Source of the DNA: Luteitalea pratensis
Lineage (GTDB): Bacteria > Acidobacteriota > Vicinamibacteria > Vicinamibacterales > Vicinamibacteraceae
Length of the DNA: 64,000 nt
NCBI RefSeq assembly: GCF_001618865.1
Contig: NZ_CP015136.1
Span: forward strand, 3,879,001 to 3,943,000
Direction: 5' to 3'
This document shows positions 5,689 to 45,426 of the stretch, one piece after another; position 1 is the stretch's first letter, and each line of letters starts with the position of its first letter. The position numbers were made by a program, and so were the translations under genes. The notes beneath the pieces are model-generated. The model saw nothing but the letters and a program-made list of their open reading frames with translations, was not told where the DNA came from and searched no databases.

Positions 5689-6239
5689 TTATACCGAATG
5701 TGAAACCAGGTCTTCTTCGGCCTTGGCCGCGCCGAAGTCCTGCTCGTCTTCGGGTGGCTTGCTGGCCGTGCCGGTCCCGCGCAGCATCGCCAGGCGGCCC
5801 GTGCGCGCCATCTCGACGATCCCGTAGGGCTCGAGCACCTCGATCAGGCTGTTGACCTTGTCCTCGTTGCCCGTGATCTCGATCACGAGCGACTCGGGGG
5901 AGACGTCGATGATCCGCGCACGGTACACCGGCACGAGCTGGAAGATCTGCGCGCGCGTCTCGTGCGTGGTCTTCACCTTGAGGATGGCGAGCTCGCGGAA
6001 GATCGACGGCCGGCGGGTGACGTTGTCGACACGCAGCACCTCGATCAGCTTGTACAGGTTCGCCTCGATGCGGCGGGCGCCGAACTCGTCGGCTTCGACG
6101 GCGATCGTCATCCGCGACACGCCGGGCGTCTCGGTGTGGCCGACGGTGAGCGAATCGATGTTGAAGCCGCGGCGCCGGATCAGCCCGCTGACGCGGGTCA
6201 GGACACCAGGGTGATCTTCGACGAGCACCACGAAGGTAT

Positions 6240-6243
<4 letters not shown>
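5689..6243 (-). CDS. ilvN: Acetolactate synthase, regulatory (small) subunit
   Basis: It binds the catalytic subunit IlvB, stimulates it and confers valine feedback inhibition. The protein starts with an ACT domain (MNTFVVLVEDHPGVLTRVSGL, positions 6243-6181, with the RRRGFNIDSLTVG strand-helix), followed by the usual second domain (AILKVKTTHETRAQIFQLV onward, ending in the EPYGIVEMARTGR conserved block). The C-terminal tail of about 25 acidic residues is longer than in E. coli IlvN. The ATG overlaps the ilvB stop in an ATGA, implying translational coupling. An open frame runs on upstream through ilvB, but the ACT start and the overlap fix this start. Confidence 0.96.
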
Positions 6244-7949
<1,706 letters not shown>

Positions 7950-40951: not shown

Positions 40952-41725
40952 ATGCAACTGATTCTGATCGGCTGGGCCAAGAAGGCTGTCTTCGAGGTCC
41001 AGGAGTACGTGAAGATGTGCACCGCCCTCGGGCGGGCCGCGACCAGCCGGCCGTTCTACTACCGCGACGCGATCGAACAGCTCGATGCCATCGGCGTCGG
41101 CTCGCTCACCGTCGTGTTGCTCACGGGCGGTTTCACGGGCGCGGTGCTTGCGTTGCAGTCCGGCATGACGCTCGATCAGTTCGGCGCCCGGTCGGTCGTC
41201 GGCCGGCTGATCAGCGCGTCGATGATCAAGGAACTCGGCCCGGTGCTGACGGCGCTGATGGTCACCGGGCGCGTGGGCTCGGGCATCGCCGCCGAACTCG
41301 GCTCGATGGCCGTGACCGATCAGCTCAACGCGTTGCGTGCGCTCGGCACCGATCCCGTGCGCAAGCTCGCGCTGCCGCGGGTGATTGCCGGCGTCGTGAT
41401 GGTGCCGATCCTGACGGTCATCTCCGACTTTGTCGGCATCGTCGGCGCCTGGGTGACGACGGTGACGCAACTGCGCGTAGCCTCGAGCGTGTACTGGAAC
41501 TCGGTGGTGATGGGGCTCTGGATCCAGGACATCTGGATGGGGCTCATCAAGCCGGTGTTCCTCGGGTTCGCGCTCGTGAGCATCGCCTGCTTCGTGGGCA
41601 TGCGGACGACGGGGGGCACGCAGGGGGTGGGCCGCAGCACCACACAGGCGGTCGTCGCCGGCTCGGTCGCCGTGCTCGTGCTCGACTTCATCATCACCAA
41701 GCTGCTGATCAGCTTGCTCTACTGA
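40952..41725 (+). CDS. mlaE: MlaE-family lipid ABC transporter permease
   Basis: Inner-membrane permease of an MCE-type phospholipid transporter, 257 residues, about five membrane segments. Family blocks: AIEQLDAIGVGSLTVVLLTGGFTG, SMIKELGPVLTALMVTGRVGSGIAAELGSM, and QLNALRALGTDPVR. It starts 28 bases after uvrB. Genes for the ATPase and the MCE protein follow with spacings of 2 and 4 bases, so the three form one operon. Confidence 0.94.
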   Translation: MQLILIGWAKKAVFEVQEYVKMCTALGRAATSRPFYYRDAIEQLDAIGVGSLTVVLLTGGFTGAVLALQSGMTLDQFGARSVVGRLISASMIKELGPVLTALMVTGRVGSGIAAELGSMAVTDQLNALRALGTDPVRKLALPRVIAGVVMVPILTVISDFVGIVGAWVTTVTQLRVASSVYWNSVVMGLWIQDIWMGLIKPVFLGFALVSIACFVGMRTTGGTQGVGRSTTQAVVAGSVAVLVLDFIITKLLISLLY

Positions 41726-41727
41726 AT

Positions 41728-42576
41728 ATGGGGACGCCGACACCACTGGAGACCCGCCTGTCGCGGGTGAAGACGCCGGGGGAGCCCGTCATCGTCTTCG
41801 AACGCGTATTCCTCGCGTTCGGTGACAACGTGATCCTCAAGGACATCAGCTTCGAGTTGCGCGCCGGCTACTCCAAGATCTTCCTCGGCGCGAGCGGCGC
41901 CGGCAAGAGCACGATCCTGAAGCTGATTCTCGGGCTGCTCAAGCCGCAGGCGGGCAAGATCTGGGTCAACGGCGTCCGCGTCGACACGCTCGGCGAGTCC
42001 GACATGATGAAGGTCCGCGACGATGTCGGGATGGTGTTCCAGGAGGGCGCGCTCTTCGACTCGCTGTCGGTGCGCGAGAACGTCGGCTACAAGCTGTACG
42101 AGGAGAGCGACACGCCCCTCGAAGACGTGCACAGGCGCGTCGAGGAAGTGCTCGGGTGGGTGGAACTCGAAGAGCACATCGACAAGATGCCGTCGGAGCT
42201 GTCGGGTGGGCAGCGGCGGCGCGTGGCCATTGCCCGTGCGATGACGTTCCAGCCGCGCATCCTGCTCTACGACGAGCCGACCACCGGGCTCGATCCGATC
42301 ACGTCGATCACCATCGACGACGAGATCGTGAAGCTGCGCGACATCGAGGGCGTGAGTTCCCTGGTCGTCACACACCAGTTGCGCGACGCGTTCTATGTGG
42401 CGGAGAGGATGGCTTTTCGCGGCAACGACGGCCGGATCCAGTTCGTGCCGGCCACGCCCGAGAAGCTCGCGCAGACCGAGTTCGTCATGCTCCGCGATGG
42501 GCTCATCCACTTCGAGGGCACGGCGAAAGAGCTGCGTGCCACCAACGACCCGTACCTCGCGCTCTTCCTGAGTTGA
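41728..42576 (+). CDS. mlaF: MlaF-family lipid ABC transporter ATPase
   Basis: ATPase driving the MlaE/MlaD transporter. 282 residues with Walker A GASGAGKST, signature LSGGQRRRVAIARA and Walker B ILLYDEPTTGLDP, then a switch His in VVTHQLRDAF. The MLA-type FQEGALFDSLSVRENVGY block distinguishes it from other ABC ATPases. It starts two bases after mlaE. Confidence 0.95.
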   Translation: MGTPTPLETRLSRVKTPGEPVIVFERVFLAFGDNVILKDISFELRAGYSKIFLGASGAGKSTILKLILGLLKPQAGKIWVNGVRVDTLGESDMMKVRDDVGMVFQEGALFDSLSVRENVGYKLYEESDTPLEDVHRRVEEVLGWVELEEHIDKMPSELSGGQRRRVAIARAMTFQPRILLYDEPTTGLDPITSITIDDEIVKLRDIEGVSSLVVTHQLRDAFYVAERMAFRGNDGRIQFVPATPEKLAQTEFVMLRDGLIHFEGTAKELRATNDPYLALFLS

Positions 42577-42580
42577 TCCG

Positions 42581-43621
42581 ATGCCACGTACACGCACTCT
42601 CGCCTGGTCCCAGCTCAAGATCGGCATCCTCGCCGTTGCAGCGTTCACGCTCGCGACGATGCTCATCTTTGCCGTCGGCGGTGATGCCGGCCTGTTCTCG
42701 GGCCGCTACCACCTCAAGACGCGATTCCCCAACGCCGGCGGCTTGCAGTCGGGGTCGGTCGTGCGGCTCGCCGGGGTCAACGTCGGCGCGGTCGACGATG
42801 TCTATCTCGATGGCGCCGTCGTCGAGGTCGTGTTGCGGGTCCGGCCCGACGTGCAGAACAAGATCACGGAGCACTCGATCGCGCAGGTCGGGTCGGTCAG
42901 CCTGCTCGGCGAGGGAGCCGTCGACATCACCGCCTCGACGCACGGTACGCCGCTGAAGGACTGGTCCTATATCCGCTCGGGGAAGACCCCGGGGCAGATC
43001 GCCGACGTCGCCGAGAACGCGACCCAGACCCTCTCGCAGGCCTCGGCACTGATCGCGGAACTCCGCGCCGGCAAGGGGACCGTGGGCAAGCTGGTCACCG
43101 AGGATGACCTGTACGTGCAGCTCAATGGCGTCGCGAAGGCAACCGAGGAAGTGATCCGGGCCATCAAACAGGGGAAGGGGCCGGCCGGCACGTTGATCAA
43201 CAACGAGGCGGCCGCCAGGAACCTGGAACGCGCGCTCGCGAACCTCGATCAGGTCACGGGCAACATCGCGGCGGGCAAGGGCTCGATCGGTACGCTGATC
43301 AACGACGACGCGCTCGCGAAGTCGCTGAGCGCCACCACCGACAACCTGCGGGCGGTGTCGGCGGGCCTGAAGAATGGCGATGGAACGGCCGGCAAGCTGC
43401 TGACCGACAACGGGCTCTATAATCGGCTCGACTCCGTGGTGCAGCGTCTGGACACGCTCGTCGCGACCCTGAACAAGGGCGAGGGCACGGCCGGCAGGCT
43501 GCTGCAGGACAAGCAGCTGTACGACAACATGAATGGCGCGGTGCTGGAACTGCGGAGCCTGCTTGCCGAGATCAAGAAGGACCCCAAGAAGTATCTGAAT
43601 GTGAAAGTCACCATCTTCTAG
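42581..43621 (+). CDS. mlaD: MCE-domain protein (MlaD-like) with C-terminal GxGTxGxL repeats
   Basis: Periplasmic lipid-shuttling subunit, anchored by an N-terminal membrane segment (about residues 10-32). The MCE domain follows (RFPNAGGLQSGSVVRLAGVNVG). After residue 155 come about five repeats of a G-K/E-G-T-x-G-x-L motif (GKGTVGKL, GKGPAGTL, GKGSIGTL, GDGTAGKL, GEGTAGRL), each followed by an acidic turn and a helix, giving a long helical tail. 346 residues. The stop is followed within two bases by a 7-base repeat array. Confidence 0.92.
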   Translation: MPRTRTLAWSQLKIGILAVAAFTLATMLIFAVGGDAGLFSGRYHLKTRFPNAGGLQSGSVVRLAGVNVGAVDDVYLDGAVVEVVLRVRPDVQNKITEHSIAQVGSVSLLGEGAVDITASTHGTPLKDWSYIRSGKTPGQIADVAENATQTLSQASALIAELRAGKGTVGKLVTEDDLYVQLNGVAKATEEVIRAIKQGKGPAGTLINNEAAARNLERALANLDQVTGNIAAGKGSIGTLINDDALAKSLSATTDNLRAVSAGLKNGDGTAGKLLTDNGLYNRLDSVVQRLDTLVATLNKGEGTAGRLLQDKQLYDNMNGAVLELRSLLAEIKKDPKKYLNVKVTIF

Positions 43622-43733: not shown

Positions 43734-44174
43734 ATGAACGATTCCTCCAATATCTGGCTCGCGATCATTGCCATCTCGACCCTCGTGATGGCCCTCGTGC
43801 AGGTCGGCGCAATCATTGCCGGCGCGATGGCGGCACGGAAGCTCGGCGCCCGCATGGGGAGGCTGGAGGCGCAGGTGCAGGGGCAGTTGCAGCCGCTCGT
43901 CGACCGCCTGAACGTCATCGGCGCCGACGCCGCCCGAATCTCCGCATTGGCCGTCAAGCAGGCCGAAAAGGCCGACGCCGCCTTCACGTCCGCCGCCCAT
44001 CGTGTGGATCAGACGCTCGCCGTGGTGCAGAATGCGGTCGTCGCGCCAGCTCGAGAGGGGATGGCGCTGGCCTCGGCGCTGCGTGCCGCGGTCGGGTCGA
44101 TCAGGAAGGGCAGTGTCACGCGTCGTCGCCCGAAGGGGAGTGGCGACGAGGACGATGCGCTCTTCATCGGCTGA
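43734..44174 (+). CDS. Small membrane-anchored coiled-coil protein
   Basis: 146 residues: one N-terminal membrane segment (about residues 8-34) followed by a long amphipathic helical region without Pro, then a basic and acidic tail (RRRPKGSGDEDDALF). The layout resembles DUF948-type proteins, but I do not recognise the family with certainty. Function unknown; its position after mlaEFD suggests an envelope role. The ATG at 43734 is preceded by repeat DNA with no clear Shine-Dalgarno. Confidence 0.7.
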   Translation: MNDSSNIWLAIIAISTLVMALVQVGAIIAGAMAARKLGARMGRLEAQVQGQLQPLVDRLNVIGADAARISALAVKQAEKADAAFTSAAHRVDQTLAVVQNAVVAPAREGMALASALRAAVGSIRKGSVTRRRPKGSGDEDDALFIG

Positions 44175-44223
44175 CGCTGGTCTCCGGCGCGAGTCACGCG
44201 CCCACCTCGGAGGATGGCGGTCG

Positions 44224-44787
44224 ATGGATCAGTGGGGCACTCGCGTAGCGGCAGCGTTTCTCGCGGCAGGGCTCGCGCAGGCGGGCATCGCCGCGGCGCA
44301 GCCAGCGACATCGAATACCGCAGCACCGGTGAAGGAACTGGCCAGCCTGCTGGCAAAGAAGGGCGGAGGCACGGGAGCGCAGTTCGTGGCGGCCGAGGAT
44401 CCGAAGGACCACAACCGCTTCGTCGCCGCGATGTTGTTGCCCGACCTGCAGCTGCTGCTGGTGTCGGCCGCCTACAAGGCGCCCGTGCTGCTGCGTGAGC
44501 GGGTCCTCACCAAGAAGTACCAGGATGCCTACCAGGACCTGCAGGCCGCGTCGCAGGCGGAAGGCAAGCTGGTCATCGAAGACCTCCTCGCCAACGGTCT
44601 GGCAGTGAAGCCGGCCAAGAATCAGGCCCCCGACGCCGCGACGATCGCCGGCCGGACCATCACTTTCGATGGTCAGTGGCGCAAGGCGAAGGTCTCCGAA
44701 GCCGAGTACACGTCGGCCTTCACGACCGCGGAGCAGGAGTACACGCGCCTGCTCGGGCTCCTCATCGCGCAGGCGAAGGTGCCGTAG
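44224..44787 (+). CDS. Exported protein of unknown function
   Basis: 187 residues with a probable signal peptide (residues 1-27, ending GIAAAQP). The mature part is mainly helical (VKELASLLAKKGGGTGAQFVAA, LRERVLTKKYQDAYQDLQAAS). No motif recognised. Its TAG stop is followed immediately, in the same frame, by the coding sequence of the HAD phosphatase, which has no standard start. Confidence 0.65.
   Translation: MDQWGTRVAAAFLAAGLAQAGIAAAQPATSNTAAPVKELASLLAKKGGGTGAQFVAAEDPKDHNRFVAAMLLPDLQLLLVSAAYKAPVLLRERVLTKKYQDAYQDLQAASQAEGKLVIEDLLANGLAVKPAKNQAPDAATIAGRTITFDGQWRKAKVSEAEYTSAFTTAEQEYTRLLGLLIAQAKVP
44776..44781 (+). promoter_or_regulatory. Shine-Dalgarno sequence for a CTG start
   Basis: AAGGTG lies six bases before CTG 44788, inside the end of the upstream gene. 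With no ATG/GTG/TTG available before the conserved HAD motif, it is the best initiation signal. Confidence 0.45.
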
Positions 44788-45426
44788 CTGCCTCCTCCGT
44801 ATCGACTTGCGATCTTCGACTTCGACGGCACGCTGGCCGACAGCTGGCGGCTGATGGGAAGCGCGATCGTCGAGGCCGCCGGGCAGTTCGGCTATCGGCG
44901 TCTCTCGGCGGCGGAGGCCGAGGCTCTGCGTGGGCAGGACAACCGCGCGGTGATGGCCGCGATGGGCGTCAAGATGTGGCAACTGCCCCGGATCGCGATC
45001 CACATGCGGCAGGTGGCGTCCGACAGGGCGGACGAGATCACGCTCTTTGCGGCGGTCGGCGCCATGCTCGAGTCCGTGGCGGCGGCGGGTGTCCGCGTGG
45101 CGGTGGTCAGCTCGAACCGGGAGGACGTGATCCGCCGTGTGCTGGGCGTTGACCTGTCAGCGGCGGTGACCGACTTCGACTGCGGGGCGGCGATCTTCGG
45201 CAAGGCCACGAAATTCCGCCGCGTGGTGCGGCGCGCCGAGGTGGACCCGGAGCAGGCCGTCGGCGTCGGCGACGAAGCCCGTGACATCGACGCCGCGCGG
45301 GCGGCCGGCATCGCATCGGCCGCCGTGACCTGGGGCTATGCGACACCGGCCCTGCTCGCGAGCCGCTCGCCCACGCACGTGGTCACGAGCGTCGGCGAAC
45401 TGGAGTCCTTGCTGACGGGACGGTAG
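44788..45426 (+). CDS. HAD-superfamily phosphatase, probable CTG start
   Basis: The HAD motif I AIFDFDGTLADSW sits at 44812-44850 and is required for catalysis. The first ATG in frame (44854) comes after it, so the gene must start earlier; the only codons available after the upstream TAG are CTG CCT CCT CCG TAT CGA CTT. I start it at CTG 44788 (212 residues), which adjoins the stop (TAGCTG). The alternative is read-through of the TAG, giving a fusion with the upstream protein. Motif II (VSSNRED), motif III Lys (KATKFRRV) and motif IV (GVGDEARDIDAARAAG) are intact; phosphoglycolate phosphatase-like. Substrate unknown. Confidence 0.82.
   Translation: MPPPYRLAIFDFDGTLADSWRLMGSAIVEAAGQFGYRRLSAAEAEALRGQDNRAVMAAMGVKMWQLPRIAIHMRQVASDRADEITLFAAVGAMLESVAAAGVRVAVVSSNREDVIRRVLGVDLSAAVTDFDCGAAIFGKATKFRRVVRRAEVDPEQAVGVGDEARDIDAARAAGIASAAVTWGYATPALLASRSPTHVVTSVGELESLLTGR

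Follow-up and report, generated by a model that had tools for sequence, protein, structure and literature searches.

Downstream of a probably exported protein, Luteitalea pratensis carries a gene for a phosphatase of the HAD superfamily that has no canonical start codon in front of its catalytic motif. By the window we mean the whole stretch of 64,000 nucleotides that was analysed; the window copy is the HAD gene of L. pratensis at 44788-45426. The features at and around the junction of the two genes are as follows:

44224..44787, forward strand: upstream gene of 187 aa, from ATG 44224 to TAG 44787, in the same frame as the HAD gene
44776..44781, forward strand: AAGGTG, a Shine-Dalgarno-like site within the final codons of the upstream gene, duplex energy -7.8
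44785..44787, forward strand: TAG stop of the upstream gene, abutting the CTG; three congeners have a stop at the equivalent place
44788..45426, forward strand: frame of the HAD-superfamily phosphatase, 212 aa, with stop TAG at 45424-45426, assigned with Pfam, AlphaFold2 and Foldseek
44788..44790, forward strand: CTG, candidate start codon, aligned with the ATG of congeners G001 and G003
44815..44832, forward strand: catalytic motif I FDFDGT, residues 10-15, lying 5' of the first ATG and invariant in a 27-sequence alignment
44854..44856, forward strand: first in-frame ATG (codon 23), which opens the ORF 44854..45426 of 190 aa
45427..45447, forward strand: REP-like palindrome GGACCGCTCTCCGAGCGGTCC, directly 3' of the HAD stop

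The upstream gene, itself contained in a longer ORF (44002..44787), ends in GCG AAG GTG CCG TAG, and the HAD frame continues with CTG CCT CCT CCG TAT CGA CTT. The next codons, GCG ATC TTC GAC TTC GAC GGC ACG, contain motif I. There are 0 nt between TAG and CTG 44788, and both genes share a frame. Three points of a preliminary description of this DNA are thereby confirmed: the FDFDGT motif precedes the first in-frame ATG, the upstream gene lies in frame with a TAG alone in between, and AAGGTG stands six bases before CTG 44788. The 22-codon stretch 44788-44853 lacks ATG, GTG and TTG altogether; ahead of motif I, the sole NTG codon after the TAG is CTG 44788. The frame runs for 212 codons without an internal stop; the N-terminal peptide predicted for a CTG-initiated product is Met-PPPYRLAIFDFDGTLADSW.

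The gene encodes an ordinary HAD-IA-type phosphatase. Pfam HAD_2 (PF13419) matches residues 9-180 at 6.8e-26, with 91.9 bits against a gathering score of 23.8, and the NCBIfam models HAD-SF-IA-v3 (29.8 bits, cut-off 29.4) and HAD-SF-IA-v1 (24, cut-off 23.3) are passed narrowly. On the NCBIfam equivalogs for phosphoglycolate phosphatase the protein stays far short of the cut-offs (78.6 vs 368 and 62.6 vs 180). Its AlphaFold2 model, built from the 27-sequence alignment, has a mean pLDDT of 93.4 and a pTM of 0.89. Foldseek returned 368 matches at E <= 0.001, of which the 50 listed look HAD-type from their titles; the best solved structure is 2ah5 (E 1.1e-13, TM-score 0.83). Motif I of HAD enzymes reads DxDGT/V, and the later motifs consist of S/T, K and GDxxxD. 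The window protein has FDFDGT at residues 10-15, provided that translation starts 5' of 44815, followed by VVSSN (106-110), GK (138-139) and GDEARDI (161-167); G138, K139, G161, D162 and D166 are invariant in the 27-sequence alignment. In family, fold and catalytic motifs it is like subfamily IA of the superfamily (PF13419; PDB 2ah5, 2nyv). A start at ATG 44854 would, judging from the model, drop the strand formed by residues 7-10 together with both aspartates of motif I.

A search of seven genomes of the family, the window's own included, gave close HAD relatives in three congeners, to which the window copy is 70% (G001), 73% (G004) and 76% (G003, over residues 2-95) identical. In G002 and the two genomes of the other genus, the best HAD matches have 29% identity or less. 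The CTG CCT CCT CCG TAT of the window aligns with ATG ACG CCA CCG TAC in G001, and the codons at the same site in G003 are ATG TCC CCT CCC TAT. G004 starts with ATG GTT CGA TAC, one codon shorter, so that its ATG is displaced by one codon. In both G001 and G003 the aligned ATG is the sole ATG, GTG or TTG after the preceding in-frame stop. The G004 frame stays open for 185 codons 5' of the aligned ATG and holds eight other such codons, the nearest 20 codons off, which makes this start the least certain of the three. The window copy has a CTG at the orthologous ATG position and lacks a canonical start; as the congeners have ATG, this codon was probably ancestral and disappeared on the branch leading to the window copy. 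The suggestion in the preliminary description that CTG 44788 is used as a start gains support from this alignment with the ATG of G001 and G003, and from its being the only NTG before motif I.

The HAD gene of G003 is truncated at about codon 80. By eye, this copy (L004, on contig C107) runs into ribbon-helix-helix antitoxin-like sequence; insertion, deletion and misassembly are candidate causes of the break. With one congener copy truncated and no close copy in G002, loss of the gene appears to be tolerated in the genus.

More distant relatives were surveyed as the best 80 of 197 confirmed ones, at 35-55% identity in named genomes, drawn from at least 592 stretches. All 80 have a canonical start 5' of motif I, the nearest being ATG in 62, GTG in 14 and TTG in 4, and in 43 of the 80 this nearest start lies seven codons before the motif. 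In four rows (L064, L087, L106 and L116) the motif register is off by one to five codons, which makes their distances inexact; the start is present in these as well.

The codons before ATG 44854 bear the marks of coding sequence. Over codons 2-22, differences at codon positions 1, 2 and 3 number 3, 2 and 8 against G001 and 1, 0 and 8 against G003; over codons 5-22, they number 2, 2 and 7 against G004. The corresponding dN/dS values, from few sites, are 0.141 (G001), 0.030 (G003) and 0.054 (G004), and the mean codon-usage score of codons 2-22 (0.32) is close to that of the remainder of the gene (0.36). As most changes fall on third positions, the stretch is translated now or was until recently. 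Over 208 codons, dN/dS is 0.249 between the window and G001, 0.218 between the window and G004 and 0.230 between G001 and G004, and residues unique to a single copy number 20, 22 and 16 in the window, G001 and G004, respectively. The window's rates being like those between G001 and G004, no relaxation of selection is visible. Of the columns that do not vary among the other 26 aligned sequences, the window copy keeps 20/20, and of those conserved in 24-25 of the 26, 14/14.

The upstream protein is probably exported, to judge by eye from its hydrophobic N-terminus; neither Pfam nor NCBIfam gave a match at E 0.001 for its 187 aa, and it is matched in six of the seven family genomes, its own included. 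Its gene comes after genes at 41017-43621 that, by eye, resemble an Mla-type lipid transport operon. In four of four genomes the upstream protein ends in LLGLL(I/V)AQAK plus two residues, and the stop that follows is TAG in the window, TGA in G001, TAG in G004 and TAG in G003. The distance to the HAD gene varies: it begins 31 nt after the upstream gene and out of frame in G003, the two are separated by 1,260 bases in G001, and in G004 the two sit on separate contigs. In-frame adjacency is thus found in none of the three congeners.

The Shine-Dalgarno-like energies favour CTG 44788 (-7.8) over ATC 44812 (0.4) and ATG 44854 (-4.2), all computed against an assumed canonical anti-Shine-Dalgarno sequence; the tail of the genome's own 16S rRNA was sought by DNA pattern and with the Rfam SSU family, with 0 matches from either. 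In the window, an energy of -7.8 or better occurs at 378 of 8000 random positions and at 110 of 2390 CTG triplets. Three other gene starts in the window have energies of -3.2, -2.8 and -10.2, a spread which indicates that strong sites of this kind are no rule here. AAGGTG is kept at the equivalent place in G001, although the HAD gene is not adjacent there; since it also codes for the upstream protein, its presence does not have to reflect ribosome binding. We take it as modest support for the CTG start.

Several accounts of this junction were weighed. That the genes share one frame and the TAG touches the CTG had suggested read-through of TAG 44785-44787, giving an exported fusion of upstream protein and phosphatase. 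The comparison contradicts this: the upstream protein terminates at one conserved place in four genomes, by TAG or TGA, and the congeners have the HAD gene out of frame, 1,260 bases away or on a separate contig. Such a fusion is thus not shared with the congeners, and we discarded it as exceedingly improbable. The preliminary description also held that orthologs with an ATG at this point would indicate a simple sequence error. The congeners do have the ATG, and it is one substitution away from CTG; the conclusion that base 44788 is wrong does not follow. The sequenced strain, HEG_-6_39, is presumably the L. pratensis of the window. Its genome of 7,480,314 bp is a single contig (GenBank CP015136) assembled from PacBio data; the announcement gives QV60 and states that Illumina reads were mapped to improve the quality (PMC4882960). 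At that quality the ATG has more probably been lost in the organism than misread; moreover, the 31-nt spacer of G003 is missing too, so the junction was remodelled regardless, and we give an error hardly any credence. Scarcely more plausible is initiation elsewhere, at ATC 44812 (codon 9) or at ATG 44854, the latter yielding 190 aa without motif I. ATG 44854 is indeed the first canonical start, but its Shine-Dalgarno-like energy is weaker than that of the CTG, ATC 44812 has no such site, and the ATG would delete the modelled strand 7-10 along with the motif; codons 4-9 differ from G003 by synonymous changes only.

We consider it probable that the gene has a derived CTG start, used through reinitiation after the abutting TAG, and yields the 212-aa enzyme at a low level. 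In the window's lineage, the ancestral ATG would have been replaced by CTG and the spacer to the upstream gene lost. Ribosomes terminating at TAG 44785-44787 could then restart at CTG 44788, perhaps helped by AAGGTG at the end of the upstream gene; the product would be cytoplasmic, scarce and coupled to the upstream gene. According to PMC10666635, reinitiation requires that genes overlap or lie very close together and is nearly lost at a distance of about 20 nt; overlaps of 4 and 1 nt are named as common in coupled pairs. Given so steep a fall with distance, a gap of 0 suits reinitiation. With translationally coupled pairs of this kind the window pair has in common the zero-length gap from stop to candidate start; it differs from them in having no overlap, a non-canonical start and a spacing not found in the three congeners. 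As regards the codon itself, CUG makes up 0.024% of bacterial start codons and has 0.86% of the efficiency of AUG, figures that PMC11497404 quotes from other work, its reference 22. Rare bacterial CUG-start genes share with the window an NTG where congeners have ATG and a Shine-Dalgarno-like site upstream. The window CTG is unlike other CUG-start genes in that here we infer initiation, and in that the start abuts an upstream stop.

CUG being reported as so weak a start (PMC11497404), expression of the HAD gene may be negligible, and the main rival to a reinitiated CTG start is a pseudogene by start loss: ATG and spacer were lost recently, the frame is hardly translated and decay is pending. 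The ATG of the congeners agrees with this, as does the tolerated loss of the gene, with the G003 copy ending near codon 80 and the best G002 match being 29% identical. Whole-gene measures average over long branches, so that a very recent loss of function would escape them, and an ATG lost too recently to leave marks would look identical. Against it, the 212 codons are free of stops, 20/20 invariant columns are kept, substitution rates are not elevated and a Shine-Dalgarno-like site stands at a workable distance. On balance we think a pseudogene rather unlikely, though well ahead of the three accounts above. If the reinitiated CTG start holds, the abutment of TAG and CTG might even offset the loss of ATG, the enzyme being made in fixed proportion to its neighbour; this we put forward as a tentative and somewhat doubtful idea.

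A gene finder confined to ATG, GTG and TTG would miss this gene, or call it 22 codons short and without its motif. If the CTG is used, the locus would be a naturally occurring example, with close relatives behind it, on which to ask if a poor start can be rescued by ribosomes reinitiating right beside a stop.

A codon-usage scan for similar cases covered 464 kb (the window plus 400 kb) and 322 ORFs of at least 150 codons, chosen greedily for little overlap. In 172 of them, at least 15 codons precede the first ATG, GTG or TTG; the scan keeps antisense and shadow frames, shorter mis-starts escape it, and the window HAD gene is not among the 172 printed. The three candidates inspected out of these 172 gave no second clear CTG-start case, a weak negative. 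The top candidate (window 5704-6372) is, by eye, antisense to acetolactate synthase-like frames. The second, a glycosyltransferase at genome position 6084720, has a plausible ATG by eye, after which its Pfam matches begin, and the sixth, at genome position 1029434, had no Pfam match.

The palindrome directly behind the HAD stop is one copy of a dispersed repeat and no part of the start problem. Allowing up to two mismatches, it has 159 matches genome-wide, 95 in forward and 64 in reverse orientation; the reversed pattern has none in either. Part of the copies stand in regular arrays, for example six at a spacing of 177 at genome positions 4605358-4606263.
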